From Buxus sempervirens (taxonomy: Eukaryota > Streptophyta > Magnoliopsida > Buxales > Buxaceae), in contig OX387191.1 in assembly GCA_947561395.2 (NCBI GenBank), forward strand, positions 39,139,439 to 39,203,438: a stretch of 64,000 nt of DNA, read 5' to 3'. The notes beneath the pieces were generated by a model. That model was not told where the DNA came from. It saw nothing but the letters and a program-made list of their open reading frames with translations, and did not search any database. The position numbers were made by a program, and so were the translations under genes. Shown here one piece after another: positions 513 to 62,300 of this stretch (position 1 is its first letter; each line of letters starts with the position of its first letter).

Positions 513-3500
513 TTTAGAATCCCAAATTTTAGGGAATAATAATATAATTGTAAATCTAAATATTAGAAGAAATAAAATAAATAAGTTTAAAACATTAGAG
601 GATAAATATTTAATCTAAGTATTTAGGAGATTGAAATTATAATCCATACTCATATTATGAAGAGAATAATAAGGAGATTAAATCTGGAAATTTAGAAATA
701 CATCTAATGGTCAAATATAGTATAATCATGAAAAAGGGTATTTTAGTCTTTTTCAAATGCCCAATTATTAAATTAATAAAATAAATAATTATTAGAATCG
801 AAATAATCAATTAGATTTAAGTTGGATTAAATTTGGATTTAAGTAGTCTAATTTATAGTTTAAAAGATGAGAAAATGGCCTAATTGTAATTATACTTAAT
901 TAGGGGTCTTAAATTTGAGGATAGGAGGAGTTTTGGAGTGTTTTAGTAATATTTTAAAATAGGGGAAATAATTAGCACGAAAATTAATTAAATTAAAAGC
1001 TCACTATAAATTAGATTCAAGAGAAAATAATTAGAAGAAGAGATAAGATAGGAAAGTTTTTCAAATAGAATTAGGAATCCTAGTTATAAAGTTTCCTAAT
1101 CCAATTAGAACTTGTATTTGGGTGAGTCTCTAAAAGGAAGGCATTAGGGAAGATTTAGGGTTTCCATTAATTCAATTGTGAGGAGAAAAGGAGAGAGAAA
1201 ATTTGTGCATAATGTAAGCACCTCATTTTTGCACCCCCGAAAGTGCCGGAAATGCAAAACCCTGGCAGAAAGTCAAACCCCGAGGGGACAAAAATTTGAC
1301 TTCTTGATCCAGGAATAATTGGCCACCTTGCTTTATCTCAATGGATAGAGAATCCCGACACGAGTCTAACGCAACTGAGTTTGCTGGAATCGGAGTCCGG
1401 ATGAAGGTTCGGCGGGCAGTCAAACTTAAGGGAGAGCCGAAAGTTGACTCTTCCTTGAATTCCGTGCCAAGTGCTTAGCCCCATGTCATTAAATAGAGGG
1501 CTCCGATACGAGTTCAACGCAACTGAGTTTGCAAGAATCGGAGTCCGGAGGAGGGTTCTACGGGCGGTCAAACTTCAGCGGAGCCAAAAGTTGACTTTCT
1601 GCTAAAATCCGATCCAAAGGCCTACCCCTAGGTCATGGGATAGAGGGCTCCGATACGATTCTAACGCCACTGAGTTTGCCCAGATCAGAGCCCGGATGAA
1701 GAAAATATGAGCTGGCGAAGTTCCCGAGCAGCAAAACCGGCGAACTGCGCACGTGGCAAAAAGCTGCACACGTGGCGAGTTGCGCAGGAAAATATCTCGG
1801 GGATCAAATCCGTAAATATCCAAACATTCAAAATATCCCAGGGACCAATCTGAAAGTATTTGAAAATATCTGAATAAAATAATATTAAACCTAAATATCC
1901 CAGGGACCATATCCTAATTTTCAGATTTTTAAAACAAACGAGCGGCGGCATTTATTATTTTGAAATGATTAGGTCGCTCGCGCGAACGTGGCAGGGGGTA
2001 TGCGCTCACCTTGAGGTGGGCGCCAAACTCGGCGGATACCCTCTGTACTCTTCTATAAAAGCCGCGCAGGGTTTCATTTCCGGAGGTTCGAAAATTTTGG
2101 TGGGGGGGGGGGGGGGGGTTCGGAAATTTTGGTGGGAGAGTTCCAGGATTCTGGATTTTTTGTTGGTTTCGGCATTTTTGTTTTGGGGTTAGGATTCGAG
2201 GGTTCGGCATTGTTTTTCTGGGCTCGGGATTTTGAAGAAAAAAGAACATACACACAGGTCCCCTCCCTTCCTCTTCTTCTTCGTCAAATCCGAAGGAGGC
2301 CGTGCTCTTGGTGTGAGAAGAAGGTTGCTCCGGCGGCCGCTCGCGCGCTCCAAGGAGGCTTCACCCACTTCGGAGAGGTGTGGAAACACCCAGGTAATGT
2401 TCCCGATGGCCTCTGTTACAAAATAAATAAGTTTATTGCTATCTTTTCTTTTCTGTTATTTCGTTTAGTAACAGTGATTGTGTGATTCGAGGGGGGAGCA
2501 TGTTCTCCCTGATGTTTGCATCTCTTGTATCATGATAAAGCCCCTTGTTCCCTTCTTCATTTATTCATGTTCTGTTAGATGTTGTTAGATGTTTTGTTAG
2601 TGTTTTTGTTTCGGATTTGTAGATGTGAAATGAGGTTTGATCCTCACAAACTAGGTTAGATTAATTTCCAACTATGTTCAGAGGTCTGCTGGGGTTCTAA
2701 GGATCCCCAGAAACCAGTTACAGAGCTCAAAAACAGTCAGAAATGGAGTTTGGAGAAAAAAAAACAGAGAGTCAGGGTCTGCGCTGAGCTCGCGCTCACC
2801 TCGCGCTGAGCTCACGCTCACCTGGCTTGGGTCCGCCCACCTAGCGCCTAGCTCGCGCCCACCTGGCGCCGAGCTCGCGCCCACCTGGCGCCGAGCTCGC
2901 GCCCACCTGGCGCCTAGCTCGCACCCACCTGGCGCCGAGCTCGCGCCCACCTCGCGCCGAGCTCGCGCCCACCTTTTTGGGTGCGCCTAACTCGCGCCCA
3001 CCTGGCGCCTACCTCGCGCCCACCTCATTTTACGTGTTTTTCGCTGTTTTCGGTCCGCCCCTTTCGCGCCGACCTTGCGCCTAGTGCCCGAGGTCGGCGC
3101 ATACCCCTAAAAGCCTGCCGAAATGCTATATTTTTGAAAAATTCCAAAAATACCCTTTACTGTACCGCGGGGGGCGCCCCCAGCACCCCCCACCCCCTTT
3201 GTTCGCTACGCATCTAACTCGTACCTTGGTACGAGGAGGTACCCCACCCCGTGGGCTCCGCTTCGCTCCGCCCACAGGGCCCTCGGGTACCTCCTCTTGG
3301 ACCCAGCACAATGAGCCATTTTTTTTCTGGATAGAATGTCAATCTTGTGTATTTTCTTATGTGATTATTGCTGAATGTGAATGATATTTCCGAACCAAAC
3401 CGGATAAACCAAAAGGGTTTCTGGGTCACCCGGAAACCCGATATGGGACTTGGACTCTCGGTCCAACTTGACTTCCAGTGGGCCTTCCAACGGGGCCCAC

Positions 3501-6500
3501 CAAGCCCGACCAATTCATTTTGCTTAACTAAGATAATAAAAGATTTGAGTGGGCCAGACCACTTGAGGCACACCCAAGCCCTAATTGGGCCATGCATGAT
3601 TAAAGTAAGATATGGTTTGGCCGAGACCACGGGTAGGGCCTATCGGGCCCACTAAGCCCATGAACCCGACCAACTTAGGGTTTCCAAACCCTAATTCAGG
3701 AAGCCTTGGGCTTTCAAACCCAAGCCTAGGTAAAGGGCCCCAAGCCCAATGCTTGGCCCATTTTGGCACAGATAAGAAAGATAAAATCAAAATCACTTGG
3801 CAACCAATTGTGGGGCCCACTCAAGGGCCCACAAAGCAATCCCGGCCCACTTTTTAGCATGAAATCCACTTAACTAATCCAACTTGAACTCCAAAAGAAA
3901 ATCAATTCAAATTGAACCAAAGTCCAAAGGGCCACACTTGGCCCACCAAGGGATACCGTGGGCCTTCCAACGGGGCCCACCCAATCAGACTCACTTCATC
4001 TTAATTAAAAAGATAAAATCAAGTAAAGGGACCCACACCACTTTGGCGGTCCCGTCAGACCTAATCAAAATTGCATGCTGGAATAGGAATCGGGTGAGTG
4101 AGAGACCAAAGTTGACTCAAACCAAGGAAACCTATGGGACCCGTCACTTGACGGGGTGGACTGGGGTGTCTACGGACTTCCCCAGACCGCAACCGAGCCC
4201 CTACTTAGAATCTCAAAGCCGCAGACCAAAAGCCTTAGAAGAAGAACTTAGGCACCCAGGTGTCTGCCTGCACCCCATCAGGCAGTGGCGACTCCAAACA
4301 AATCCCGAGGCACGCATCGTTTTGCGTGCGCCTCGTCATGCGACCGAAATCGGGTGTGCACACATAAGGCTAGAAAAATAGAAAGAGAATAAGAGACTTT
4401 AGAGAAAAAGAGGAGTTGTAGAAAATTCCGACTAGCAACCATCAAACGACGATCTAGGCAGATCCAACCGTTGGATTGAGCTCAAAGTTGGAGGTTTTAT
4501 TCTAGGCTAGTGGTTTTACAATCTAAACGGTGGAGATCGTGTTGGGAGATCCCTAAAGTTGTGCAGATATTTCAGAAAATCGGTTATACTTTGAGGTTCA
4601 TTGGAAGAGAAGGATTTTGTAATCTTAAATCAAGTAGTAACCTTGTACATTGGAAAACTTGCATGGTTTATTGTTTAGACGATAAATATTATGTTCTTCG
4701 GATTTGTGATGATTTAGAAACATGTTTATGTTCATTGGAAGGTTTTAGTTGAGGTTTAAAGCATGGAAGAATTATATGTTCTTCTTTTTTATAGAATTTT
4801 GTGTACTTTGATCTTTGGATGAAAAGCATGATCTTGATGATTGGATTTGTTAGTAATTGTTTTAGAATATTTTAGTGAGTTTAGAGAATGATTTTAGATG
4901 TGTTAAAAGTAATCTTGAATGATGGAAATAAGTTATAGAAAAAGAAATAGAAAATTCGCAAAATTTCGTAAAACCTAGATTTTCTTCATTTTATATGGAC
5001 ACCCACAATGACACTCAAGCGCCATCAAAGGCGCTCCCCCGCCTGTGTTTTTTTATAGAAAATTTAGAACCCAAAAGTCAAACTTTTTATTTAAGCCGAA
5101 CGCCCGAAATACAGCTCGAGCACCATCCTGGGCGGCAAAATTTTGGAAAATCAGTTTTCTTTGAGCGCCTGACAGCGCTCAAGCACCCATGACATAATTT
5201 TTGTATTTTTGGAAATATACCTACTTTTTTATTATAAAATTGTTTTTGTTGAATTCCAACTCACGTACCAATAAGATTAGGGTGTTTTGAGAGTGTTTGC
5301 ACTGGCCGATGATTTATGTGGATTTTTATAAAGAAATTTGGTACGTTCTACTAAAATGACTTTTATTTGAGTTTATTGTTCCAAATTGTTTTTTTCCAAC
5401 TTAGTTTGATTTTATTGATTTCTACACTTGCATTTGACCTATCTAAAAATGTTTCCAGGGTTGTTTTGAAAGAATTGCATATATTTTCCTCCCTGTACCT
5501 TGGAGTGGTTATTTCTGACTCATGTAACTTGAGTTTGAGCATTGTTTTCATCCATGTATCTTGGAGATGATTTGAGATGAATTATAAATGTTATGGATTG
5601 TTTTTGGATATCAAAGATTATAAATTTTCAGTATTTTGTTTTGCATGTCTAATGGGCATAGCTTGGTATGAATCCATACTTTGGCTAGATAGTGAGGTCT
5701 ATCTATCTTTGTTTGAATTAAGTTTAGTTCTATTTATGCGTTTCCTCCAAGAAGGAGAGGCTATTCCAAGAGGGAATGAGCTGCAGCGGTTCGTTTCCAC
5801 CAATATGATGAGGTCTTTGTTGGATATGTTGCAACATTGTTCTTTGACTGAATTGTACTCGCCAACTTAATTCTTGTATCAGGTTTAAGTGATCCGTTGT
5901 GTAAAGCAAAGTCCGAAACTCAGAGTAGGTCGACTTCGTGGTGACCGAAATCCAGAGTAGGCTAGTTCATCACACGTAAGAGGGTGAGGGGGCGATTAGG
6001 ACTGGATTTAACCTCTCAAAGTGGTCATATTTCACGAGTCATGTGATATCACAATTGTGTGGCTTGTTGTGTGAATACTCTGGATTTTGGACTTTATATT
6101 GTATTTGCCGGTTATGGACTTTGATTTAATTGTTGTACCTCATGAAAATGTTTTCTAAAATTATATAGACTGTTTAATAGCATGCATGTTACTACTTGCT
6201 GAGATTTTATATCTCACCCTTGTTTTTAATATTTGTTTTTAGATACTCTTGGAGAGAATGTGCAAGTTGGGGTAGATAATACAAAGGGTACAGCAAAGGA
6301 CCTTGATGAGCACCTTATGGATTATTAGTTTTCTTTTATATTCTATTAGGAGATTTGCTTAGAAGTTATTTCTTTTAATGATAGGTTTGAGAAGTGTCTA
6401 GAATAGGTAGTTGCCTTTTAAAAATTCCAGATTTGATGTATTGAGTTAAGAAGTTTATTTTGAGGATCATTAGCACTTTTATTTTGAATTAATGAAGGAG

Positions 6501-7626: not shown

Positions 7627-7772
7627 TGTAAAACCCCAATTTTCTACATGATTTTTTTATTGGAAAAATAAAAATTAATAAGCTGTGTGTATGTAGGGAA
7701 ACTTGGTGGGCGAGCGTTACATCGAATCCAGTTGATTTAAAACTCGTCGAGCGGCAAAGTATGTATAGTAAG

Positions 7773-7780
7773 TATAAATA
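7773..7780 (+). promoter_or_regulatory. TATA box of the family 2a LTR
   Basis: TATAAATA about 146 bp into the LTR. Comparable boxes lie at 44,572 and 53,407 in other 2a copies. Each is followed after some 250-550 bp by an AAG|G(T/C)(G/A)AGT donor-like site. Transcription start is not visible in the sequence. Confidence 0.55.
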
Positions 7781-9130
7781 CTTAAGGAAGTTAGACTCGT
7801 AGGTTTTCGTTCTCGCATACTTTGTGTTGAAGGCGATTTTGGCTGGTGATCTAGGGTTTTTGGAGAGAAGAATACCGGGTGCTTCCTGCTGATTAAGTGT
7901 TCAGAATCGAGGAGTTCAGAAGAAAAAACTCTTGCGAACCGAAGACAAACGGAGTGAAGATCGACTTGTTGGATTGCTCTACTAGGAGTTGCTGTTGCAA
8001 GACTTGGGAGCGTATAAGGTGAGTAGCATCGTATTGATTTTATGGTGGGTTTTGATCTCTGAGATTAGTCGGAAGCATGTTTTTCTGAATAAGTTATTTA
8101 TCGAGTGTGAGTATTTGATGGGTTAGAGTCGTGATCATAAAGTTGTTTGGATTAAATCCGAAACATGTTTAACAGTGTTTTGGTAATGGTAAAAGTATAG
8201 ATGAGTGGTTACAGAGGTCAAAAATACGGCCAGTCATGGAGTTCTAAGATTAACAGAGAGTCGCGAGTCGGAGGTAGTGTCCGCCGACTTGGCGCCTACC
8301 TAGCGCCAAGTGTTACAGTCAATGCAAGGAATGTTATGTGTTCTCGTCGAGTTCGCGCTAAGCTCGCGCCAACTGCGGGCGAAGTATATTTTAGTCTTGC
8401 CGAGTTCGCGCTTGTCTCGCACCAAGTCATTTTAGTTCGCGTGAGATGTTGATTTCGTATACGCTGAGTCCACACCGACCTCGCGCCAAGCACTAGAGGT
8501 TAGCGCACCCAATAGAAATTTCTGAAAGTTGTTTTCTGACCAATCCAAGCCAATTTTTGATACTTTGAGACTTCAACCTTTTACCCAAAGACTAGATTAG
8601 GATATTAGAAATAGTATATCTGTTCAAAACAATTGGGGAAGCCTTGAATCAAGTTCTTGTTATTTATATAGGTTTCCGAAGTGGGAATTGAAGGAATCTG
8701 GGTAGGTTATTGGTTGTTCATGACACTATAAGTTAATGAGTTAGTCTTCGTTATGTATTATAATTGTCTTTTGATTTTGAATCTGTTTAATCTGAATTTG
8801 TGTGATATCAAAGGGCTAAATAGTATTGAAAATTCTCTTGTGTGAGTAAAAGGATTTTACTTCTAATGGGGTTTGTTGTTTTGGGGTTTGGATACCTATT
8901 GAAAATACATGAGTTGCTATTCTGGTTGGAATGATTTGTGATGAGTGTATTGGGATATACATGATGGTAACCAGTGTGGGTTTATTGTTTTGTAACTACT
9001 GAGTTTTGTGAACTTGTTAATTTGGTTTTGGGTTTAGTTTCCCTTCGATCTATGTTAAGCTTAGTAATGTGATAGTATTGTTTGTTGGGGTAATTGCATG
9101 GCCTAGTGTGTTGCCACGACCGGTGTAGAG

Positions 9131-9254
9131 CAGCCAGATACCCTGAGTAGGCCTGGTTGTCAATGCCGATACCCGGAGTAGGCCGGCATTGGATGACGAT
9201 ACCCTGAGTAGGCCGTCATTTCAGAGTGTCTGATACCCTGAGTAGGTCGGAACT
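9131..9254 (+). repeat. Hairpin array: constant 15-nt loop, changing stems
   Basis: Four consecutive units. Unit 1 (9131-9159) has stem CAGCCAG / CTGGTTG. Unit 2 (9162-9190) has stem AATGCCG / CGGCATT. Unit 3 (9192-9220) has stem GATGACG / CGTCATT. Unit 4 (9226-9254) has a weaker stem GTGTCTG / CGGAACT. In all four the enclosed 15 bases are ATACCC(T/G)GAGTAGG(C/T). Units 1-3 each form seven pairs, with one G-U allowed in units 1 and 3. The stem sequences differ between units while pairing is kept. See Part 2. Confidence 0.85.
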
Positions 9255-9615
9255 GTGTACATGGAGGTGTGGAGTGTCTCCTTGGCATGTGAATTAACCA
9301 ACTTAAGCAATATGCATGACATTGACCTTTCGTTGTTTTATCGGTACTGTGGTTGATAATTGATGTGAACTAATATTAGACTTCTGGATTTCCATCTTGT
9401 ATTTATCTCTATTGATGTATTGGTGTTGGTTATTTATCGGTGCATACTTTATAACTGTGGTTAACTATTTCTGCATGCATGTACTACTCGCTGAGATATT
9501 TGTATCTTATTCATTTGCTTTTGTTTTGTTTCAGATACTCGTGGTGAGGCGCCTATGGGGGTAGATTCGACTGACACTTATAGGGAGGAAGATTATTACT
9601 ATAATCCATAGACTA

Positions 9616-10915
9616 GTAGGTTTATTTTAGATTGAAACTTTGACTCATTTGATTTTGGGAAATGTAATAAAGTAGTTGATGTGGATTCGTTTGAATTTAC
9701 TTAAAGATTATTTTGGACGTATTAGATAAGAATTTAATTGTGCACTCTGATATGGTATTAATTGCGTGATTATCCAGCGATCACATTTATTTTGGATCCT
9801 TACCTAATCCTCTGTGAGATGTGTTATATTTTTAATGAACAACACGGATCCGGGGCGTTACAGAGCCCCGACAGATAGAACACTCCCCAATCCATCAGAT
9901 CCCCACATCTACCCCTTATGGAGTCAAATGTTGAAGACACCCACAGGTGGATGAGCACTGCAAAGACCTCTAACCATGTTCCTCCTATGCAACCTTTTGA
10001 TATTTCTCCTACGAATGTAGGACCCCATTTAGCAAATTGGAACCTCACATCTCCTCTAGAGATATTTCTCACTGCCACCGATTTATTTGCTTCTTCTTTC
10101 GATGCCAAGAATAACATAGTTGAGGAAGATGACAAAGGAATAAAGCTCAACACTTGAACCTCTATCTGCTGGGAACATATCAGCTATCGGTTCCTTCCAT
10201 GCTTTCACAAGAGTGGATGACAAGCAAAGAATAGGAAATTGCCGTATAATACTCATCTCTTTACTTTAGGTTTATTTTAGATTGAAACTTTGACTCATTT
10301 GATTTTGGGAAATGTAATAAAGTAGTTGATGTGGATTCGTTTGAATTTACTTAAAGATTATTTTTGACGTATTAGATAAGAATTTAATTGTGCACTCTGA
10401 TATAGTATTAATTGCGTGATTATCCAGCGATCACATTTATTTTGGATCCTTACCTAATCCTCTGTGAGATGTGTTATATTTTTAATGAACAACACAGATC
10501 CGGGGCGTTACAGAGCCCCGACAGATAGAACACTCCCCAATCCATCAGATCCCCACGTCTACCCCTTATGGAGTCAAATGTTGAAGACACCCACAGGTGG
10601 ATGAGCACTGCAAAGACCTCTAACCATGTTCCTCCTATGCAACCTTTTGATATTTCTCCTACGAATGTAGGACCCCATTTAGCAAATTGGAACCTCACAT
10701 CTCCTCTAGAGATATTTCTCACTGCCACCGATTTATTTGCTTCTTCTTTCGATGCCAAGAATAACATAGTTGAGGAAGATGATAAAGGAATAAAGCCCAA
10801 CACTTGAACCTCTATATCCTGGGAACATATCAGCTATCGGTTCCTTCCATGCTTTCACAAGAGTGGATGACTAGCAAATAATAGGAAATTGCCGTATAAT
10901 ACTCATCTCTTTACT
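9616..10915. repeat. Tandem duplication, two 650-bp units, across an LTR/LINE junction
   Basis: Unit 1 is about 9616-10,265 and unit 2 about 10,266-10,915, with a constant offset of 650. Each unit holds the last ~247 bp of the family 2a LTR, the GAGCC target site and about 400 bp of LINE ORF1. By eye the two differ at about a dozen positions (roughly 98% identical). The duplication therefore happened after the LTR insertion. It leaves an orphan LTR end at 10,268-10,512. One copy of the LINE coding sequence is a mirror of the other, so the two near-identical 109-residue frames here are one sequence counted twice. Confidence 0.92.
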
Positions 10916-12498: not shown

Positions 12499-12870
12499 AG
12501 CATCATCAAAGTTAATTGAATAAAAAATAATTATACTTTTTTAATTTTAAAATTTTGGTTTTCTTTTTACCTTCCGGCAATCTCTCTTGAAGTGACCCTT
12601 CTTGCTATTGTTCTAGAACTTTTTTTTTTAATCTTGTGGATGTCCAATGTTGCTCTTTCTTGACCCTAATTGTCCACTACTTTTGTCTCATCTTTTTGCT
12701 CTCTCTTTCTCCAATATTTAAGCCATTTCCATATTCTTACCAATGGCCCCTATAGATTTTCTACGAGATTTTTCACCAAAGCTGGATGAGACCAAAATAG
12801 CGCTGATTTAATCCTCAAAAGTAATAACCCACGGATGACAGCTGTCTACTATCTGTGCTGAAATCATTAA

Positions 12871-13050
12871 TGTAAAGGTTTCACAAACCGTAGTGTTTTC
12901 CTCAATGAATAGATGAGGAAGTCTCAAGTCTTTATATATAAGAGATTGATTACACAAAATCAGGATATACAACAAACTATCCTACAGTTATATAATTTGA
13001 ATTTAAATATATATACAGTTAAGATCTGATCTTATCTTGACTCAGTAACA
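12871..13050 (-). repeat. 3' LTR of the young Copia element
   Basis: 180 bp, TG...CA on either strand reading, identical base for base to 17,281-17,460. It lies next to the purine tract that primes plus-strand synthesis. Confidence 0.97.
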
Positions 13051-16000
13051 CCCCCCCTCAAGTGAATCATGGGTACTGGAGACGCATTGAACTTGCTTCT
13101 GAATAACAAGAATTGAGGCTTGGAGACTCCCTTGGTGAGTGTATCTGCTAATTGAAGATGAGAAGGGACATAATCAATCTGTAATACTCCATTAGCAACA
13201 AGTTCCCGAATAAAATGATAATCAATAGCAATGTGTTTTGAACGTTGCCGAGTCACTGGATTTCCAGCCATAAAAATGGCACTTTTATTATCACACAAAA
13301 TTATGGGCTTGGCATGTAAAGTGATGTTCAAATCTCGGAAGAGTTGAAGAAGCCAGGAGACCTCAGCTGCAGCAATAGCAAGAGAGCGGTATTCTGCTTC
13401 TGAACTAGAACGAGACACAGTAGCCTGTTTCTTAGAACACCAGGAAATCAAATTTCCACCTAAGAAAATAGCATAACCAGATGTTGATCTCCTAGTATCT
13501 GGGCAACCAGCCCAATCGGCATCGGAATAAGCAATAAGTTCCGGTTTAGAAAGCCGATTGAGATTGAGACCAAAATGATAGGTGCCTTTGACATATCTAA
13601 GAACTCGTTTTAAGGCCTTAAAGTGATCAACTGTAGGAGCATGCATATACTGGCAAATGGTATTAACATTGTAAGACAAATCTGGCCTAGTAATAGTAAG
13701 GTACTGAAGAGCGCCTGCAAGTGAACGAAAAAGAGTGGGATCAGCAAAAGCTTCGCCTTCCGCAGTGAGATGGTGTCCAACCACGAATGGAGTGGAAATT
13801 GGTTTGCAGTCTTGCATATCTGCCTTCTTAAGTAAGTCCAAGGCATATTTTGCTTGACTTAAAAAAATGCTCTTAGAACTCTGTTGAACCTCAATGCCCA
13901 AAAAATAATGAAGATGACCAAGATCCTTCATTGAAAATTCCTTAGAAAGACTAGTGATGATCGAGCGAACAAGAGTTGGATTAGAGCCAGTAATCACCAT
14001 ATCATCCACGTAAAGAAGTAGATAAATGGTTCCAAGTGAACCATGATATACAAAGAGAGAAGAATCAGCTTTGCTTGAAGTGAAACCCAGTCTGATAAGA
14101 TAAGAACCAAATCGTTGAAACCAAGCTCTAGGAGCTTGTTTCAACCCATAGAGCGACTTCTGTAGACGACATACATAATTAGGATGACGAATATCCAGAA
14201 ATCCAGGAGGTTGCTCCATGTAAACCTCCTCTGTTAAATGTCCATGTAAGAATGCATTCTTAACATCAAGTTGATGAAGAGCCCAACCTGAAGCTGCTGC
14301 CAAAGATAGAACAACTCTAACAGTTGATGAGCGAACTACAAGACTAAAAGTGTGCTCAAAGTCAAGACCTGGTATTTGAGAAAATCCTTGAGCCACCAAC
14401 CGAGCTTTATGTCTTTATATGGAGCCATCTGCTCGTAATTTGGTCTTAAATATCCATCTGCACCCGACCACATTGTGGTTTTTAGGACGTGGAACAAGAC
14501 GCCAGGTGTTATTGTGATGCAAATCTGATATTTCATCTTCCATAGCAGAAAACCATTCAGGTTTCTTTGCTGCTGATTTGAAACCACGTGGTTCTTTTAG
14601 AGCTAGTAAAACCTGAAAGAACTTAGATGGTAAATCAGTAAGAGCATGATAAGCCTTTGGTTTGAAAATTCCAGCCTTACCACGGGTGATCATAGGATGT
14701 GTTGGCAACAGTGAAGAAGGATTTGGTTGGGGTTGAACATGTGAAGATACTGAAGAGGAGGTGATACCGTGATCAGAAGAAGAAGGCTCATGTAAAGTCA
14801 TTGGAGATGATGTGGGGTCTACTGTAGTGTCATGAAAGGAAGAATCAATGCTTTGATCAAGGGTAGAGAATGAGGATATTGAATCTGACCCATGACTAAA
14901 AGGATTGTTGTCTTCACATGGAAGACATTTGGTAGTTGACCCACACGATTTGGAAGCATCTGAAGAAAAATAATCATTGGACATGTTAGCAGGAATTGAA
15001 TCATCACAAAAACTAACATAGTCAAATGAATTAATTTGATTGAAATGGCTGTCATTAGCAAAAGGAAAATTTGTTTCACAAAAATCAACATGACGGGATA
15101 TATATACACGATTAGAAGGACGATGAAGACATCGAAACCCCTTATGTGTAGTACTATACCCAACAAAAACACATGGTAAAGACCGAGGAGCCAATTTATG
15201 TGGTGCATAATCACGTAAATATGGAAAACATAAGCACCCAAAGCTTCTTATCATGGAGTAAGAAGGAGACGTACCATAGAGAATAGCATACGGTGTTTTG
15301 TTGGCAAGAACTTGTGATGGGAGCCGATTGATGAGGTAACAAGCAGTGGAGAAGGCCTCAACCCAAAGATGAAGAGGAGCACTGGAATGAAACAGTAAGG
15401 TTAAACCAGTTTCAGTTATGTGCCGATGTTTTCGTTTAGCTACACCATTTTGATTTGGTGTATAAGGACACGAAATTCGTTGGGAAATGCCACAGTTAGA
15501 AAGGTGAGATTGAAAGCCAGTATTGGTGAATTCGGTTCCTCCATCACACTGAAAAGATTTAATACGTGTAGAAAACTGGTTTTCAACGAATTTCTGGAAT
15601 CTAATGAAAGTGTCATAGAAATCAGATTTTCGTTTGAGAGGATAAAACCAACTGAAACGAGAATGATCATCTATAAACACTACATAAAATCGATAACCAG
15701 AAAGAGATGAAATAGGGGAGGGTCCCCAAAGGTCACAATGAATACGATCCAAAATAGAAGAACAACGTTTATCATTAATTGCAAAAGGTAATCTGTGACT
15801 TTTACCAAGTTTACAACCAAGACAAGGAATATTATTGCTGTCCTTCTGAGAGGAATTGAATGAAATAACACCATGCTTATTCAATGAATGAACAATACGG
15901 AAAGATGGATGTCCTAATCGAGCATGCCAGACTGAGGGTAAAGCAGTAGAAGAAGAAGTGTCAGAAAAGAGAGCTGCATGGCCACGCTCAAGAATGTAAA

Positions 16001-17280: not shown

Positions 17281-17460
17281 TGTAAAGGTTTCACAAACCG
17301 TAGTGTTTTCCTCAATGAATAGATGAGGAAGTCTCAAGTCTTTATATATAAGAGATTGATTACACAAAATCAGGATATACAACAAACTATCCTACAGTTA
17401 TATAATTTGAATTTAAATATATATACAGTTAAGATCTGATCTTATCTTGACTCAGTAACA
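17281..17460 (-). repeat. 5' LTR of the young Copia element
   Basis: 180 bp, identical to the 3' LTR. On the minus strand it contains a TATATATAAAG box and is followed directly by the initiator-Met tRNA primer site TGGTATTAGAGC. Confidence 0.97.
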
Positions 17461-23457: not shown

Positions 23458-23489
<32 letters not shown>

Positions 23490-44019: not shown

Positions 44020-46921
44020 TGTAAAACCCCGAATTTTAACCTAATAAATAAATAAATAATAAATAAAAGAAAATATGAGTTAAGTGAAGATTTAGAGGGT
44101 AAGTAATTCAAATAAGTCATAAGTTGTAAATAAAGAAAGAATTTTAATGAAATTAACCTAAAAGAGTAAAAAGGGTATTTTGGTAATTTTCAGAAAAGGG
44201 TAATTAATAATTAGATCCTTAAATAATAACTAGAATTAGAAAATAGAAGGAAATAATTTATTTTGACAATCTAGAAATTAATAAAAAGCCTAAAAGTGGG
44301 ACAAAGGGTAATTAGGAGATTTCACGTCTTAATTTGGGGAAAATAAGGTTTTAGGTGATAATAATGTTTAATTAAATGTTTTGCACGAAAATAGGTTATA
44401 AATAGCAGTTTAGATAATAAGAAACTTAATTAGTATTGTTTAATTAGAAAAATAGAAGGTGGAGAAAAAGTAGGAATTAAATTAGAAGGATTAGGCTTTA
44501 ACTAGACTATGGTTGGGTTAGCCCAAATTAAATTAGCCAATTAGGGTTGGTTTAAGATTTCTAAAGCTTAGTATAAATAGGAAACTAAGGTTAGACAAGA
44601 GGGAATTTTCGTGGGTTCTTCTGGAGAGAAAAGAGGGAGAGAAAGGAAGGAGGTTCCTAAATGGAGGTGTCTGACCAGCCACCATCAAAATATGATCGGG
44701 GAAAATCCGTACGGTGGATCGCCTTCAAATTTGGTGGTTTTGTTCTTCACTGATGGAACTACATTGTGTACGTTGGAGATTTGAATTGGAAGAGTCTAAC
44801 TTGGTGCGTTTGGGAGCAAAAGTCAGGTCCAGAATTAAAAGTTTCAATGGAAGAAGGATTTAGCGTATAAGGCAAGTAGTAACCCTTGGAAAACGTGAGG
44901 AACAGCATGATTTCGTTTTCTGTGATTTCATATGGATTGAATGGATTAGTCGGAACAGTATTTACATGGAATCAAATTGTTTATATTTTAGTGTTTGGTG
45001 TTCTTGAAGGATTTGTTGAAATAATGGAGAAAACTTGGTTTGATCATGAAATAAATTATAAGATGGTATTTAATTAATAAGAATTGATCTAGAAGGCTTT
45101 AGGAATGTTTTAGAATTTTATTAGATTAATTTAGACCAAAGAAACATATGGCAAAGGCATAAAAATCCGAACTTTAAAAATCTGGAAATTTCTGTTTAAT
45201 TTTGCACGAGCGCCTAGGATCGCCCAGCCCTGTAGAGGTAGGCGTTCTGTTCAGATTTTGCAGATTTTGGGAATTTTGTAATAGGAATAATTACCCAATA
45301 AATTTTCTGATTAATTAAGCATGTTAACATCTTTATAAGGACCTAATTAGGCTATAAAAATTATAAAATTAATTTGGAAATATTAAGCAATAAATTGAAG
45401 GTTATAATGAAAGGATTGTTTATAAAAGAGTCAAACGGTATGGATATTGCTAGAAGTAATACTACTGAAATTTATAGCTTATAAATATCTTTTAAACTTC
45501 ATTCTAGGTCTGTAGAACATGCTGGAAAAATAAAATACTGAAAATTCAAATAGAGACTAGCTTAGGTGCTACGGTTGGAAATTGGATTCTAATAAAAGGG
45601 ATTAATAAAGAAAACTCTAAGTAAGATTGGATTTACTTTATTTTGAACTTTAAATAGGAATATTGGCTACTGGAATTGCATAAACTCAGATTTTATTGGA
45701 TTTATGATACTTGAGTTTTATTTTGAATATAATAGGAAGAATTGCATATGTTATTCTGAAAATGCCTATAATTGGATTTGTTATGATTGAATCATGATTT
45801 TCACATGGAATGGAATACTTGGGTATGGATTGGTATGTGGTATGATGTTGTTCTCTTTAATTTTACGGTTGGGTGATACGGCTTCTGTGGTTGAGTTGAT
45901 ACCAACTTTTACGGCAGAGATGGGTAATCCTCTGTGTAGAGATGTGTAATCCTTTACGGGTAAAAGTGTGTATGCTTCATACATTAGCGTGTCCTCCTGT
46001 ATATGGTTTTATCGTGGTTTGTGTCAGTGGGCTTAGCTGTATATGGATCCATAGTTTGGCTGGTTAGCTAAGTGGTATTTAGTTTGGGTTGAGTTACTCC
46101 TATATGCGAGCGTGTTTCCCTTTGCAAGTTAGTTTGCTCTGAGAAGGTCCTATGTCTGGAGGGACACCCCGATGAGCCACTGGTGATTCCCTGTACATGT
46201 GGATAAGCGACCACACTCCATGTATTGATTCTGGTGCTGCATGCTGGTGGTACGTCCAACTCTGCGGGGTTCGTGTGCAATAAGTCGGTGACTACGGCTC
46301 TTGCCTAAGTTGCGTTGCATGGGGCTTGAGTATCATTAAGTAGCACTGCCCCTAAGCCGCACGGTGGAATAGCAGTTAGTCGAGTGTCATCTCAAATACT
46401 TATCATCTTTGTGAGTCCTGCAATGGCACGTGTTTTATCGCCTTATTTGTAATTGTCCTGAATAACTGGGATTTCTCGTCTTATCATTGATTAATCGAAT
46501 ACCTCATGATTATAGCTTACATTGGACTGTTTCAAATTGCATGCACCTACTACTTGCTGAGATGTAAATCTCATTCTGTTTTCCCCTATTTTTTAGGTTG
46601 CTTGGAGAGATCGCGAAGATGGGGTTTTAATTTGATGGGTAGAATTATAATTGGTATTAATGCCACATGTTGATTAGATAAACTTTATGGTAAACTGAAT
46701 TGATATTATTGAATAAAGAATTGTTTTTATTGGCCACCATCACTCTGATGTAATTAATTCATTAAAGTTTTAAAATTATTGTGAATCTTGGTTTGTATCT
46801 GACCCCAGCTTCGTGGTAACACCTCGAGTTTGGTTGTTGAACCGGACTTGGGTTGTTACAGTAGTGAACCGGGTTCGGGTTGGGTGCCGGTTTTGCACTG
46901 ACCCTGGTTCGGGGTGTTACA
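44020..46921 (+). mobile_element. Solo LTR, family 2a, inside the Gypsy 3' LTR
   Basis: Starts TGTAAAACCCC and ends TTCGGGGTGTTACA, with perfect duplication CACAT (44,015-44,019; 46,922-46,926); 2902 bp. TATAAATA is at 44,572-44,579. A donor-like AAG|GCAAGT is at 44,871/44,872 (GC type). There is a hairpin array at 45,915-45,957, a GAGAT/ATCTC stem-loop near 46,558 and an acceptor-like TTTTTTAG ending at 46,596. It lies in the opposite orientation to its Gypsy host. No internal genes. Confidence 0.93.
45915..45957 (+). repeat. Hairpin pair with shared 10-nt loop
   Basis: Unit 1: CAGAG / CTCTG (45,915-45,934) around ATGGGTAATC. Unit 2: GTAGAG / CTTTAC (45,936-45,957, one G-U) around ATGTGTAATC. 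Different stems, near-identical loops. Confidence 0.75.
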
Positions 46922-46959
46922 CACATGACCTCATCTAGCTTCACTGATTCCACATAGTG

Positions 46960-47075
46960 GCTAGGCATCCACGCCGATTACCCTTGACGTAGGCATTCAT
47001 ACACCGATTACCTTTGATGTACAGGCATCCATTGCCGATTCCCCGTAGCAAATGGGCATCGGCCACCAATGTTGC
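46960..47075 (-). repeat. Hairpin array of the Gypsy 3' LTR (family 2b)
   Basis: Sense (minus) strand units share a (T)CAA(A/G)GGTAATCGG loop or a close TACGGGGAATCG form. Stems: CTACG / CGT.., TACA / TGTA, CCATTTGC / GCAATGG, and CACCA / TGGTG at the outer end (about 47,060-47,080). The equivalent array in the other 2b LTR is at 59,205-59,325. Confidence 0.75.
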
Positions 47076-54686: not shown

Positions 54687-57179
54687 TGTAACGCCCCGGG
54701 TCCAGGTTTACTTAACCACATAAACCCAAATCTGGTTCGTTAGGGAAAATGACCCAAAACACTATTCCAGACTTAAAAAATTTCATTTATTATATCAGAG
54801 TGCGGAAATAAAAACATCTTTCAGAAAGCGCGGAATTTAACTACCAAAATAATCCTTTTATATTTCATCCATGAAGTCTAGAAAGGGTTCAACTAATTAA
54901 CATAAATAACATCCACCAAGAGTGTGGAATAAAGACACTAATCATTCTTCAAATAATCATCAAACTCCTCAATCAAAAATACTAAAAATAATCCCTAAGA
55001 AAATAAATCTAAATGTTTCTCCTTGTTCTTTTGGACATACACAGGAATGAAATAATCTTCTTCCTGATAATCATAGTATTCCCTCGGTGGCTCTACCCCA
55101 GCAACGTCCTCTCCAGGAATATCTGAAAACAAAACCGATAAAACAATAATGTGAGAAACAACATCCCAGTAAGCAGTCATGCAAATAGTTGACCACAATA
55201 AAATAAGCAACGCTTAATTAGAATAATCACAATAAGATTCAAGACAACAATGAAATACAATTTGTCCACCTCATGGGACTCATGAAATAGTATACCAGAA
55301 AAAAAGAGTAGACATGTGCCAGTATGCTTCCTAACCGAATTACGATAGACCAGCCGCCTTGCAGTCTGGCTATTCAACAGCAACGGAAGAACCCAACCAT
55401 GAGTTAGCATGTACGGCCCAACCAATCTAGGAGTGGGTAACGTAGCGACCGACCAATCTAGGAGCGGTACCATTCTCGAGATGATGGAATGCCTCAGACA
55501 TAGAATTCAAACCCCTCTAATTAACATTTCACTTACTAGCTATTCTATTGATCCATATAACTGCTAAGCTCACTCAACAGTGAGAAAAAACAACCAGGGT
55601 AATGGACATACTTCTCAATAACGCCCACCAAAATACAAAACCATATCTGTAACCAAATCTGCCCACGCGGGATACAATAAATCAGGCACAAGCCTTGTCA
55701 CACCAGTGACCCAAAACCAAAACAGAATGCACCAAGTCATATGTCCAAAACTCTAGATTTCAACGGGCCAATATGTCCCGAATGTATATCGACTCTATTG
55801 ATGCACACAATACCTTCATATCACCCAAATACATGTGTATGAACTCACAAAACCAACCTTGGTTAAAAGTAAAATCTTTTGGAACAATAGAATCAAGTAA
55901 AAGTGCCTCTTTAGAAACATCTACCCAAAATCTTTATAAAATTGAATTTTAAACATCCGCTAATGCAAACACTTCTTAAATACCCTAATCTTGATGGTAC
56001 AAAGGTTAAAATTGTATAGAACCACTTCCTTAGTAAAAACTAGGTTGAAAAGTCAAGTTTTCCCAAAATCTGACATACTGTTGCTTGAGCGGCCAAGGGC
56101 GCTCGATCGGCCTTACAAAACAGGTTAATTCAGGGTAGGTCACTCGAGAGGTTGCTCGAGCGACTGTTCTAGCGACTGTTCAATTTGGGTAAAATTGCTC
56201 TCGGGTTTTGAATATATACATAGGGCGCTCGAGCGACTGCTCAGGCGGCCCGATACGTGAAAAATCCGTAACTTTGCGAAATTCCATAAAAATTCCACAA
56301 TTCAATATTCAATGCATCAAAACCATTTTAAATCATTCTAAAATACTTTATAAACATACTAGAATAATTCCAAACAAATAAAACATCATAAATAATAAAA
56401 ACAACGCATCAAAACACTGAATAACCATGAATATCGTCTAAACACGAATTTGGATTTTATGCAAGCGTCAAGGGACTATTTACCTGGTTTAGGTACTTAA
56501 ACCTTATCTAAAAGCAACGAAATATCACTCCTAAGGTTTACCAAACAATCCCGACAAGCCTTGATCACGTCTTGGTTCAAAAATCACACTTTTAAGACTC
56601 TTGAACATACGAAAATCTCCAGAACAGAACTTATATCTATATGGCTCTTACCTGAGTTCTCTATGCATGAAAATACTCCTCCTTCTTCTCTAAGACGGCT
56701 CCTACAGTTGCTTTAGGGTTAGGTTTGATCATAAGGCAACTGGGAGTAGGATAGAGGAAATAAGAAGGAAACGCACAGCTGATTCTAATTTGAGTTTTTA
56801 AATTCTACGTGCATAACCACTCCATGCACAACTAGGTTATTTTATTAATTAAGGTCTTTTATTCAATTGCCCCTTCTTCATTAAATCCATTGCAACCAAA
56901 CCTTCTTAAACCAACTCAATCATTGGGTCAACCCACTATCATTGGGTTCGACCAACCCCTTGTATTCTATTTGTTTATAATCCAATTAATTCTTACTAAT
57001 AATATAATAGCACAATAATTATTATAGTAAAATTATATTTGGTCAATAATCAGGAGCTCACCTTATATAAGCTCTCCTATCATCCCTTGTTCATCTTGAA
57101 CTCCTCAGGGTTGAACCGAAATTTCATCTCCTGCATATTATTAACCAATTAGACTATTTACTAAAATCTGGGATTTACA
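54687..57179 (-). mobile_element. Solo LTR, family 2a, minus orientation
   Basis: On the plus strand it runs TGTAACGCCCC to CTGGGATTTACA, with perfect duplication GGTCC (54,682-54,686; 57,180-57,184); 2493 bp, uninterrupted. The sense strand has a CCAG|GTAAAT donor-like site near 56,485, GCTCGAGCGCC-type hairpins near 56,230-56,090, a two-unit hairpin array (55,417-55,468) and a TTTTCAG acceptor-like end near 55,122. It resembles its host LTR, inserted in the opposite sense, giving a large inverted arrangement. Confidence 0.93.
55417..55468 (-). repeat. Hairpin pair with identical 13-nt loop
   Basis: Plus-strand reading: CCCA / TGGG (55,417-55,437) and ACCG / CGGT (55,448-55,468), both around ACCAATCTAGGAG. 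Stems differ, loops are identical. Confidence 0.72.
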
Positions 57180-57381
57180 GGTCCTACACCTGTATTTGGA
57201 CTATCTGGACATGTTTTGAGTGCCAAATGATTTTATATACACCCGGATTATTTTGCCCATTGAAACCATGATTTTGAGATATGTGTTGGACTCCAATTGT
57301 GTGGGTTTTTGGGTCACAGTGGTGACAAGGCAGGTGTTTGGTTTATTGTTTCCGCAGGGCGGATTTGGTTATTGGTGTTTA

Positions 57382-57820
57382 TATCCTCAGTCCGTGTATT
57401 CGGCGGGATACTTCCTCAATCTGTGTATTCGGTGGGAAGCTGGTTACTTTTGTTTATATTCTCAGTCCGTGTATTCGGCGGGATACTTCCTCAATCCGTG
57501 TACTCGGTGGGAAGCTGGTTACTTTTATTTATCCTCAGTTCGTGTACTCGGCGGGATACTTCCTCAATTCGTGTACTCGATGGGAAGCTGGTTACTTTTG
57601 ATTATCCTCAGTCCGTGTACTTGGCGGGATACTTCCTCAATCCGTGTATTCGGTGGGAAGCTGGTTACTTTTATTTATCCTCAGTCTGTGTACTCGGAGA
57701 GATACTTCTCAATCCGTGTACTTGGTGGGAAACTAGTTACTTTTGGTTATCCTTAGTCCGTGTACTCGGCGGGATACTTCCTCAATCCGTGTACTCGGTG
57801 GGAAGTTGGTTACTTGTTAT
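57382..57820 (+). repeat. 73-bp tandem repeat, six units, each with two hairpins
   Basis: Units start near 57,382, 57,457, 57,530, 57,603, 57,676 and 57,748. Each unit holds hairpin A (TATCC / GGATA outer, CCG / CGG inner, apex TGTA(T/C)T, inner bulge TCAGT) and hairpin B (CTTCC / GGAAG outer, CCG / CGG inner, same apex, bulge TCAAT). The linker is CTGGTTACTTTT. The three long overlapping plus-strand frames (up to 178 residues) are translations of this repeat and are not credible proteins. It lies at the array position of this family 2a LTR. Confidence 0.9.
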
Positions 57821-59204
57821 TTGATTTACTTCTTCAGTTCGTGTACTCGGCGGGAAGCTTGTTGTTTTGTGGTTGGTGCCTTTTATCCTTAGTCCGTGTA
57901 TTTGGCAGGATACTTCTTGGTGGTAGTGATTACCTTTCATTGTGTGATGTTACAGGGTGGTATACTGTTTGCCGTGATTTCTATATTATCGTTTTTCTAG
58001 TTGTTGCTTTGGTTTAATCGTACACCTTATGACTTATGTTTATGAAAATTATGGATTGATTTCATGCATGCACCTTGCTACTTGTTGAGATTTATTCTCA
58101 CTCCAGTTTTCCCCAATTTTTCAGGTAATCTTGGCGAGGATGACAAGTATTGGGCTAGTATGCAAAAGGGGTAGCCAGTTTAGTTGTAGTCTAGTTTCAT
58201 GAGCTTAAGGAAATTGTAAAGGTTAAAGATTAATTGTTAATGAATATTATTTTAGGTTTCTGCATATAACTCTGATGATGTAATTAATAAAGGTTTTAAT
58301 TTGATATGGATTTTAGTTGCTTTTGTTACTTATTATAACACTTCGGGTCCGGAAAAATTTGACTCGGAACCGGGGCATTACATGCATGAACCAGAAGAAC
58401 TCGAGAGCTGTTTTATACCCGCTAGAAGCATACTTGAGCGCCTTGTCCAGATTTTCCAAAGATGTGATTTTTTAGCCCAGATCAAACTACCAATTGTTTT
58501 TATTCAAATCCAGCCTATGTATAAGTAAGAGTTAGGTGTCTAGGAAGTGTTTCAACTGGAAGTATCTCAAAATTTCAAATAACAAGGATTTTGGGTACGT
58601 TTTACCAAAGAAGGTCTTATAGAGAGTTTTTTGTCCTAGATTCTTATAGGAGTAGGATGATTTGATTCCGTCACTTTGAGCACCTCCCAAATGACCCTTG
58701 GAAGTCGTAATTAAGAACCAAAACCAAGTTGCACGAATTTCCAAAGATTTAAGGCATAGGTTGCCCAAGTGAGCCATGAGCTGCAAAGATTATTGTTTAA
58801 ACTGTATTTTGATATTTTTGAGAATCTTGTATGCATGCAATATATATTTAGGGCATTGGCCCACTTGTTTAGCATGCCATGGATATTGATACATTGAATG
58901 AAAGGGCAGTGGCCCATTGATACTAATATATTGAATGGAGGGCAGTGGCCTAGAATCCATGAGAATTGAAAGAGGGCTTGGCTTAAGATTGACTCGGGTA
59001 AGGCCATGGGCTACCCTTGAGCATTTTCCATGCAAGTGTGCATGTTGTATTGTTATCAAACTTGATGAATGGACACACCAGCATAATAAACCCTTAAGAT
59101 ATGGATCCATAAACTTAAACAGGATTGTTTGTATAAAAATGCCTTGACCAAGTTATTGTTGTTCTTGTTACCATTGCTATATCATTCTAGCACCAGCAAC
59201 ATCA

Positions 59205-59325
59205 GTGGCCGATGTCCGTTTGCTACGGGTAATCAGCAATGGATACCTATACGTCAAGGGTAATCGGTGTATTAAATGCCTACGTCAAGGGTAATCGGCG
59301 TAGATGCATAGCCACCTTGTGGAAT
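59205..59325 (+). repeat. Hairpin array of the second family 2b LTR
   Basis: CTACG / CGTAG around TCAAGGGTAATCGG (59,279-59,302). ATACG / TGTAT (one G-U) around the same 14 bases (59,249-59,272). TTGC / GCAA around TACGGGTAATCA (59,220-59,239). GCCACC / GGTGAAGC around TTGTGGAATC (59,311-59,334). Stem sequences differ, loops are shared. Confidence 0.8.
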
Positions 59326-59344
59326 CGGTGAAGCTAGATGAGAT

Positions 59345-62300
59345 CGTAACGCCCTGGTTCCGGGTCCATTCCTAATCCCGAGGTGTTATGGTAATCAAAC
59401 AAAGCAACTAAAGAAACTGGATAATTTAAAACTTTTTGTAACTTTATATTCAGAGTAAATGCGGAAACTTGAATTTAAATTTTCTTTATTAATCAATAAC
59501 CATGATATACAATGATTTCAATTCCATGAACAACCTACAACTATATAAACTACCCATCTACAATTAGCCCAAGATTTGACGTCCTCGCCAAGAGTACCTG
59601 AAAAATGGGGAGAAACCGGAGTGAGAATAAATCTCAACAAGTAGCAATGTGCATGATGTAAAAAGTCCATAATTTTACAATACTAGTCATGAGGTGAACG
59701 ATAAAACCAACCACGATAATACGATGCTATAACAATAACAAATACCAATCCAAAACAAACATGTGTGACATAATAGGACTCGTGAACTGAAACCACCTAA
59801 TAAGAATATTCTTGCCCCCATAGTTCGCCACATCACGACTTACATGATAGATGGAGCCTGCACCTGCAATCATTACCATCTCCTCCGTCAACCATCAACG
59901 TGGACCACCCACGCATGGGTTGGCGAGTACAATCCACGGTCCAAATAAAATCCCATAAAGGGTACCGCTTCCGCGGAGGCCATACTAATTCGATCAAAGA
60001 TTAATGGACTCACGACAACACGTCTAATACCAGTGCATGTGCAAGTCACAAGTGATCCTCAAGCACGGCCAAGCTCCAATGTGCGAGTCACAAGTAACCT
60101 GCCAACATGACCAATATAAAGCTCATGAAAGTCGATGTCTCATTGAAGCATGCGGATGGTAACCTGAATAACAAAATAAAAACCGTTTATCGAAAGCAAC
60201 CTCGGCTAAGACCAGGCCGCACCTGTAGCGGTCTAGGATTGTTGCCTACGTCGCCCGCACCTGTTAGTACGACGGACCGCATACTAGGGAGTTCCGAACA
60301 AGAATAACTTACCAGCCAATTCCCTTTCACTTCCTAGCTAAGCTATGGATCCATACGAAGCATTGCCCACTAGACACAACTCACAATCAAAACCTTGAAT
60401 AACTCAATAATACAATATTCGGTGATAAACCTTGTACCAATAATCACAACCATGTCCTAAGTGCCGTGTCCAGCAATAATTTCCAAAACAACGGTGTCCA
60501 ACCAAAAGATGTTCAAAATAACCATTTAAACAGTTCTTAAACAAAGTTCCAGATCATTTAATAAGAAAAGTACGAGAGTATACACAAATTCTAAATAAAA
60601 GGTTTAGATTTGAGTCGTGTTAGTGTGAGCATGCTTAGTTTATCTTTCTAATTCAGTATTCATGTTATTTTTTATTTCTTACAAAGTTTACTCCAAACTC
60701 TATACTTTGGTTCATCCTAAAATCTTTACTTTTAAATCCTTATTTACTAACTAATACCTTAATTCTCTAAAACCTTTGGATTACGTTATTGATTCTTTCC
60801 AGAAGTTAATTTAGGTCTATTGTGACTTGTTAGACTTGGTGTCATACTTAGAATCCTAATGAAAGTGGTTTGAGTGCATAGGTATACCTTAACTAGTCTC
60901 CTTTGATTCATATTACATTCATTATCCCAAATAATTACCCTTTTATCCGATTTTAATTCCTTCACTTCCTACATCTCAAATTACCCTATTTACAGGTGTT
61001 ACAACATTAAGATTTTAAGGAAAATCATTAGAAATTGAATCTGGGCACAAATCCCAAGGTTTCAAATTTCTGACAGATGGTTGCAAAGGGTCGCTCGGGC
61101 AACTGTTCTAGCGGGTAGGTTTTCAGGTTCTGTTATTTTTCAAAGGCCTATTGCCTGAAGTAACACTCGAGTGGTGTATCGAGCGCTCCAGCTTTAACAT
61201 TGTTTTTGTTCAATTACGGAAATTGTAGAACTTTCTATACATACTATTTACTTGTTTTGATTCTAAACAACTAATTTCCATCCTAAACTAGTTCTAGGAG
61301 AACCCTAAACTAATCCCATCATCTTTCCACTTATCTTTGAGTTTCTTTTGAAGTTTAAACTCATCATGATCAATCTTTTCTTGATTTCCAAAAGAAAGAT
61401 AAATCACCAAACAATTCTTTATAAACAAGTAAGCTTTTTACCATGAAATCCAACTTCAAAACAATATGATTAAACATCAAAATCACGAGAAAACATGCAG
61501 TTCTTCCAGTTTCAAGGGTTTGCTACTTGCCTTATGATGAACCTAGATTTTTCAGAAACTTCGCCTGTGCCCGTTTTTGGAGCTCTACCACACCCCTCTA
61601 GACTTCTCCAATTTTGATCTCCACTGTTCAATTTGAAGTCTTCTATGAGTAAAACAAAACCCTAAAATTTTAGCCCATTCCAACAGTTGGATATTCTTAG
61701 CTCGCCGTTCGAAATTGGCTGGTCGGCCATCTCTGCAACTCTCTTCTTTCTAATTCCTCCTTTCTTTTCTCTCTTCTCTCCTTCTATTTTTGGCTCCTAT
61801 CACTTATGCACAAATTTCACTCTCCTTCTAAATTATTTTCAAAACATAAAACACTCTTTAAACCTCTTTTTTATAGCCTCCCTACTAGTTCAACTCTAAT
61901 TAGGTTTAGCTTATTCTAATACACTTAGTGTTTCCCTCTTCTACCCTTCTCTTTAATTTAACTCCTTTAACTCTCTTTTAAAGGATCTCCTAATTAATTT
62001 TCGTGCTTAACCTTATTTCTAATTTTAAATTGAACTTAGACTTTTATTATTCACTCAAATTACCTATATTTTGGACACTAAATAGTATAATTACCATTAG
62101 GCCCTTTTTCACCCTTTAAGCCTTAATTTCATTATTTTACATCCAACTAAGCTAAGATTTTGTCTAGTTGAATTTGTTGACTTAATAACTAATTATCTTA
62201 TTTTTCTTCAGGAATTTAACAAATTGAAACGACCAAATTACCCTTCCTCTTTAAATTCCTATTTTAACCTCTATATCTCTCTTTAATTCTCCTACTATTA

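Follow-up and report, generated by a model that had tools for sequence, protein, structure and literature searches.

Rows of constant-core hairpins in related LTRs of Buxus sempervirens suggest an overlooked signal by which retrotransposons mark their own RNA

Little is known about how plant LTR retrotransposons distinguish their genomic RNA from mRNA, or their own RNA from that of their relatives. A solo LTR of Buxus sempervirens (contig OX387191.1 of assembly GCA_947561395.2) raises this question in a concrete form, as it carries a tandem array in which, according to a first-pass annotation, adjacent hairpins differ in their stems and share one loop. What would hold a loop constant while the stem around it is free to change, and in which molecule would such a structure be read? 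The array was followed up in the window, i.e., the whole analysed stretch of 64,000 nucleotides from this contig (Table 1). In our judgement it is very probably a base-paired structure kept by selection, and the hairpin rows found in related LTR ends suggest an overlooked signal by which these elements mark their own RNA.

The array of LTR B proved to be real, with four copies of a core of exactly 15 nt, ATACCC(T/G)GAGTAGG(C/T), starting at 9138, 9169, 9199 and 9233. The arms pair at 7/7 positions in units 1, 2 and 3, and the fourth unit, rightly described as weaker, reaches 5/7 pairs, 4 of them contiguous. The stems had been called completely different, which holds for unit 1 against the other units (2-3/7 identical positions per arm). 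Between units 2 and 3, however, the arms match at 5/7 and 6/7 positions, and the differences are a compensated change of C-G to A-T plus a wobble change of A-T to G.T. Stems pairing no better than shuffled flanks had been named in advance as the result that would count against the structure; instead, the observed pairing sum was reached by none of 200,000 shuffles of the letters within each arm, and out of 24 possible assignments of 3' arms to 5' arms the true one alone gives 26/28 pairs. LTR B itself ends within a 650-bp tandem duplication (9617-9916 and 10267-10566, 99% identical) which copies the end of the LTR together with its flank.

Table 1. Coordinates of the LTRs, hairpin arrays and associated features in the window
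Feature	Position	Strand	Description
LTR B, solo	7627..9862	+	ends TGTAAAACCCC...GGGGCGTTACA; 5-bp target duplication GAGCC; hosts array B
Predicted intron of LTR B	8019..9534	+	donor AAG/GTGAGTAG, acceptor TTTCAG/AT; contains array B
Array B	9131..9250	+	4 units, core ATACCCKGAGTAGGY
Array B stems			CAGCCAG/CTGGTTG, AATGCCG/CGGCATT, GATGACG/CGTCATT; weak GTGTCTG/CGGAACT (unit 4)
Small hairpin TGAGAT...ATCTTA	9492..9509	+	near predicted branch region of LTR B
AATAAA	9666..9671	+	about 131 nt past predicted acceptor of LTR B
Array A	5907..5971	+	2 units, core AAAYYCAGAGTAGGY; LTR A ends at 6607
LTR G, solo	44020-46921		target duplication CACAT; hosts array G
Array G	45914..45958	+	2 units, core ATGKGTAATC; stems of 6 and 7 contiguous pairs
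Array H	46936..47056	-	4 units; cores AMRGGKAATC and ATGTGGAATC
LTR D, solo	54687-57178		target duplication GGTCC; hosts array D
Array D	55417..55468	-	2 units, core CTCCTAGATTGGT; stems ACCG/CGGT, CCCA/TGGG (4 bp)
Array E	57380..57915	+	14 units, two stem types mostly alternating (TATCC/GGATA, CTTCC/GGAAG); further pairs within core
Array J	59215..59336	+	4 units; same family as H
Array K, third unit, looser	59849-59881		AGATGG/CCATCT
Array K	60209..60274	-	2 units, core ACAGGTGCGG; stems CGTCG/CGACG, AGACC/GGTCT, shifted register

The central claim of the annotation, that both arms change together while the loop is held, was borne out between the units of the window's arrays, where covariation exceeds both shuffled and slid controls; these measurements compare units within the arrays of one 64-kb window, related units are not independent, and the core boundaries used for the counts were picked by eye. 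In array B (4 units, 9 pairs), 86.1% of cells are paired against 58.1% after shuffling (0/500 shuffles equal), the covariation score is 0.778 against 0.266 (0/500) and 7/9 pairs are changed on both sides (0/500), and sliding the partner by 1-3 columns brings covariation down to 0.32 or less.

The folding energy of the array is ordinary. Sense RNA of 9131-9220 folds with a z of -1.80 (11/200 shuffles equally stable) and that of 9131-9250 with a z of -1.89 (10/200), the minimum free energy structure of the entire four-unit array is another fold (-42.4 kcal/mol), and unit 4 alone (z -0.06) folds no better than its shuffles. Among the 71 sliding windows of LTR B, array B had the second-lowest z (-1.7), and in E the array was lowest (z -1.8), with stronger windows (to -4.6) elsewhere in A, D, G and M; fold-energy scanning, run on shuffles without a fixed seed, gave a weak signal and was rejected as an array detector. 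The ordinary energy, the different fold of the whole array and the restriction to a single 64-kb window weigh against the hairpin reading, and the first of these is also what speaks for chance or an artefact of reading. Such an origin appears extremely improbable and is already contradicted by the shuffle, covariation and model tests: besides the arm shuffles, neither the covariation score nor the number of paired cells was reached in 500 shuffles for three alignments, and a covariance model trained on array B alone found the units of LTR A.

A 3' module is common to nine LTRs of the window, and arrays lie upstream of it in eight of them. Constant-core hairpins with differing stems are thus present in 8/9 LTRs having the module, weakly in A (stems interrupted), D (stems of 4 bp) and K (shifted register), with LTR M as the exception; M was rejected as a covarying array, its repeated hairpins having constant stems. 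The eight array-bearing LTRs are not eight independent families, because H and J are one family and cores are shared by A and B and by G, J and H. LTRs of the TG...CA type with 5-bp target duplications are B, D and G, all three being solo LTRs without an internal region; the duplication of K is imperfect, and none was established for A, E, H, J and M. Some of the LTRs are nested, D in E, G in H and K (59346-62375) in J, and the interrupted hosts H and J belong to the same family.

The link between A and B illustrates how the cores behave. The best non-training matches of the B-trained model were the two units of array A (E 0.0087 and 0.02), in which bulges or internal loops interrupt the stems, and 10/15 core positions are invariant across the six units of A and B; blastn (E up to 1e-3) aligned only the acceptor module of these two LTRs, among the matches listed. 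LTRs D and E are 80% identical over 547 nt of E and LTRs E and K 73% over 382 nt (blastn, among the matches listed), and the cores of D, E and K differ despite these alignments. In array D the re-assignment of arms gave 1/2, the best attainable with two units.

The largest array, that of LTR E, forms 9 pairs, of which 3 lie inside the core, so that the nominal loop is partly paired, and 96.8% of its cells are paired. Covariation was 0.453 against 0.257 in shuffles (0/500) and fell to 0.12 or less when slid, with two of five measures not above shuffles (pairs changed on both sides, 69/500; pair types, 500/500). The consensus sequences of its two unit types, compared for 13/14 units (unit 57702, which carries a 1-base deletion, was omitted here but kept in the covariation count), differ at 8/34 columns, and the 6 that fall in the hairpin make up exactly three compensated pairs; since the two unit types are two lineages, these three pairs may reflect few events. 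Unit 57557 has additionally changed a core C-G to U-A, for which other units show U.G intermediates; a single U.G pair is conserved in 13/14 units.

Arrays H and J, as members of one family, permit a direct comparison of stems: their 6 substitutions all keep pairing, the stems of the fourth units (CACC/GGTG in J4, CACT/AGTG in H4) show a compensated change, and both arrays retain a U.G pair in their units 2 and 3. Taken alone, J and H have 82.1% of cells paired and a covariation of 0.643 against 0.399 in shuffles (0/500; 0.33 or less when slid), with two of five covariation measures not above shuffles (130/500 and 214/500). When the 3' arms of array J were re-assigned, the true score was reached by 4/24 assignments with 4-nt arms, 2/24 with 5-nt arms and 1/24 with 7-nt arms, the true one included.

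A seed search detected no array in LTR G, which came up as the second-best non-training match of the J/H covariance model, on the right strand (E 0.55); the best such match (15437, minus strand, E 0.23) falls within a Ty1/copia element. The cores of LTR G, at 45920 and 45942, are enclosed by stems of a length which, around a 10-nt gap, is found at about 0.46% (6 pairs) and about 0.23% (7 pairs) of all places in the window. A core pattern matching G, J and H, written after G had been seen, has 20 matches in the window; every one of the 10 in J, H and G forms 4 or more contiguous pairs, as against 4 of the 10 others (one with 5, three with 4). In the joint alignment of these three arrays (10 units), 84.3% of cells are paired, covariation is 0.895 against 0.323 in shuffles (0/500; 0.36 or less when slid), the four inner pairs are formed in 40/40 cells, and 7/7 pairs change on both sides, a count matched by 30/500 shuffles. 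The copia element mentioned above (12870-17460) contains gag, integrase and RT domains (Pfam), and the 100% identity of 181-nt stretches at its two ends suggests a recent insertion.

Palindromic tandem repeats are common in the window, which lends some support to an explanation without any function: template switching (quasi-palindrome correction) copies one arm onto the other and would give matched changes in tandem repeats in the absence of selection. A CACTA-type DNA transposon, with ends CACTACAAAAAAAA in both orientations at 21741-26573, carries 41-bp subterminal repeats (21778-22046) that form hairpins with a compensated change (GGCATT/AATGCC vs GACATT/AATGTC), and the palindromic repeats at 36582-37728, of the CCGCATTT..AAATGCGG kind, likewise show compensated differences among copies. 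Further repeat fields were noted at 38622-40017 (two, with palindromic units GGTACCTTAGGTA and CTCATTAATGAGAGATCATGA) and at 2781-3025 (11 copies of the GC-rich 22-bp repeat GCGCCGAGCTCGCGCCCACCTG). A scan for seed pairs gave 28 and 14 matches, where the null averaged 2.5 and 2.1 with maxima of 6 and 7. It also caught simple palindromic repeats (38.8-39.9 kb and 21.9-22.1 kb), and its counts, being made of dependent pairs, serve as a pointer and not as a test. Against template switching, arm copying would erase wobble pairs, yet specific U.G pairs persist in the LTR arrays; the same architecture stands upstream of the same module in separate LTRs; and cores are alike in LTRs which blastn leaves unaligned there (A and B; G against J and H), among the matches listed. 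We regard functionless repeats of this origin as quite unlikely. Cores persist where arms and surroundings do not.

The acceptor-like 3' module ends in TTTTCAG or a near variant in 8/9 LTRs and is broken in H (TTTTCAA). Its profile, built from the nine modules, refound its nine training sites (E <1e-19) with nothing else above the inclusion threshold. A hairpin of the TGRGAY...RTCTCA type with at least 5/6 pairs occurs in 9/9 modules, its inner pair being T-A or C-G (for D another register with 5 pairs is listed); the hairpin lies near the predicted branch region and may have a part in splicing control. Donor-like sites AG/GYAAGTAG were found for B (8019, with GTGAGTAG), G (44872), E (53960), F (63420) and K (61530, minus), and one with a single change for D (56483, minus); three of the donor-like sites are of the GC type. 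Allowing one mismatch, the scan gave nine matches in total, of which 17117, 62851 and 36887 (minus) are the three others; A, H, J and M yielded none. A donor profile found its six training regions with nothing else above threshold.

Donor-like and acceptor-like sites thus stand at consistent places in B, D, E, G and K, flanking the array in each, and on this pattern of sites the five arrays are predicted to lie in an LTR intron. LTR F has a donor-like site only, the window ending there, and A, H, J and M have the acceptor module only. The distance from array to acceptor is 284-403 nt in B, 271-335 nt in A, 294-345 nt in D, about 210-740 nt in E, 638-682 nt in G, and 611-676 and 251-283 nt in K; array J would lie about 280-400 nt away if the nested K is discounted. 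An AATAAA follows the acceptor by 108-162 nt in B, E, G and K and is absent within about 320 nt past it in A, D, M and H; the one located 92 nt past the J acceptor was dropped, since LTR F starts at 62712 and includes it. All six donor-like sites have TATA-like boxes no more than 900 nt upstream, and in B, D, E, G and K the arrays are downstream of these boxes.

That the hairpins might work as DNA, in the form of palindromic or cruciform protein-binding sites with enhancer activity, similar to the repeated motifs of Sirevirus LTRs, seems improbable to us. Hairpins do form on the other strand and in DNA: antisense RNA of array B folds slightly better than sense (z -2.61), and in DNA folding it is again the antisense strand that scores better (z -3.34). 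LTR repeats of palindromic type for which regulatory roles have been proposed are on record as well (PMC2829016, PMC10760457). In the present arrays, though, arms vary and the middle is constant, the reverse of what a palindromic binding site shows; the U.G pairs kept in E (13/14 units) and in units 2 and 3 of J and H are not what duplex DNA would be expected to favour; and in B, D, E, G and K the TATA-like boxes precede the arrays. The ratio of G.U to A.C at non-Watson-Crick positions is 16:3 (LTR G included; p 0.07 allowing for composition), 13:3 with fixed 7-nt arms (p 0.13) and 11:2 without H (p 0.12); a first count of 15:2 (p 0.007) was discarded as biased, the stem ends having been picked by G.U pairing. 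Because the p-value is 0.07, the excess was dropped as proof that sense RNA is the acting form, and the antisense strand folding as well or better weighs against that reading.

Taken together, the features described above are consistent with a mechanism that we propose tentatively, by analogy with retroviruses, and hold at rather less than an even chance: selected RNA hairpins in an LTR intron would serve as a packaging mark read by the element's own Gag/nucleocapsid. Short RNA stem-loops, kept by selection, would lie within a predicted intron filling most of the LTR. Their stem sequence would be free provided that the arms pair, and the stem would hold up a core of about 10-19 nt, constant inside an LTR family and different between groups of families. 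The acting molecule would be sense RNA, namely the unspliced LTR RNA, in which the core would be recognised, most likely by the element's own Gag/nucleocapsid, and the likeliest job of the hairpins would be to label unspliced full-length RNA for packaging, a label lost on splicing being the simplest role. A self-encoded, fast-evolving reader is likelier than one host protein, because several different cores occur in one genome; since no coding region was seen for these elements, the link to Gag is one that we infer. Retroviral Psi lies downstream of the splice donor and marks unspliced RNA for packaging. By the logic of strong-stop synthesis, an intron in an LTR outlasts reverse transcription only if unspliced RNA gets copied, hence the element would have a reason for marking that RNA. 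A point against a label lost on splicing is that, should R include the intron, the 3' copy in spliced RNA might retain the array. The stronger form of this proposal, a fast-evolving, family-specific RNA identity tag seen by the element's own Gag on unspliced genomic RNA only, is in our view doubtful.

The nearest rival to a packaging mark is an export or splicing element read by the host, i.e., selected RNA hairpins whose readers are host factors controlling splicing or the retention of the intron, or else the export of unspliced LTR RNA from the nucleus, in the manner of CTE, RTE and MTE elements. The distance to the predicted acceptor is about 210-740 nt for arrays A, B, D, E, G and K, and another conserved hairpin stands near the predicted branch region. 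A 2025 review (PMC12786077) states that RNA export of plant LTR elements has not been directly studied and that it is unclear if CAR-like export motifs exist in plant elements. Cores that differ from family to family in a single host are harder to square with one common host reader, and we consider this alternative unlikely, while giving it more weight than the DNA-level and template-switching explanations. For work on selective packaging, export and splicing of these elements, a compact and recognisable cis element in a predicted LTR intron would offer a direct test, and its variable stems around a fixed core are a searchable signature for genome-wide work.

Searches beyond these LTRs gave the following picture. 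Rfam had no match in the 64 kb at gathering score and none at E up to 5 in 8900-9600. A 15-mer had 10 matches in viral_contigs, compatible with chance by estimate. Outside the window, a looser two-core pattern matched at least 120 stretches, and the stricter E pattern, the LTR 3' module and the two-core B pattern matched none; a copia RT search there returned no relative. Among the matches listed from the PMC literature, none was recognised as dealing with constant-core covarying hairpin arrays or with an intron inside a plant LTR.

The elements may belong to the Tekay/Del chromovirus lineage, as suggested by their TGTAA..CCC / GGGGCGTTACA ends. Several known systems resemble parts of the arrangement. 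The CTE, a retroelement RNA export element, is a cis-acting structure for unspliced RNA. The RTE of IAP and the MTE of musD (PMC12786077) are likewise cis-acting RNA structures serving unspliced retroelement RNA, but they belong to animal elements and have other folds. According to the same review, plant LTR elements are generally without introns, Ogre and EVADE excepted. Splicing in plant LTR retrotransposons is thus exemplified by Ogre and EVADE (PMC12786077) and by Tyran and Varan (PMC7730604), the latter from a sunflower survey in which two of the expressed elements had spliced introns and the expressed set included no Tekay element; the predicted intron described here differs from all of these in lying within the LTR and in carrying hairpin arrays. 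In maize, structure was reported to be concentrated in the LTRs of copia elements, with no obvious peak in Ty3 elements (PMC10760457), which weighs against the proposed reading.

The nearest plant feature seen in the literature is the set of Sirevirus LTR motifs. Their RM boxes are also multi-copy palindromic motifs in plant LTRs, but have constant arms, nearly all with a CGG-CCG core, and stand upstream of the TATA box (PMC2829016). By these properties the present arrays are not RM boxes: their arms vary, they have no CGG-CCG core and they lie downstream of a TATA-like box. The CACTA subterminal repeats of the window are similar in being tandem hairpins with compensated stem change, and differ in belonging to a DNA transposon, with a nearly constant stem and a varying loop.

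The hairpins of retroviral Psi have G-containing tips and lie in the leader past the splice donor, so that they are missing from spliced RNA. The Psi of MLV and HIV-1 resembles the present arrays as a series of short RNA hairpins with exposed tips, and the likeness would extend to position if the shared donor-like site ahead of array B is used in splicing. Unlike Psi, the hairpins described here form a tandem array with one constant core and free stems inside an LTR and a predicted intron, and their packaging role is proposed by analogy. If the identity tag, which we have rated as doubtful, were nevertheless to hold, a plant counterpart of retroviral Psi would have arisen in these LTRs in a repeat-based, easily diversified form.
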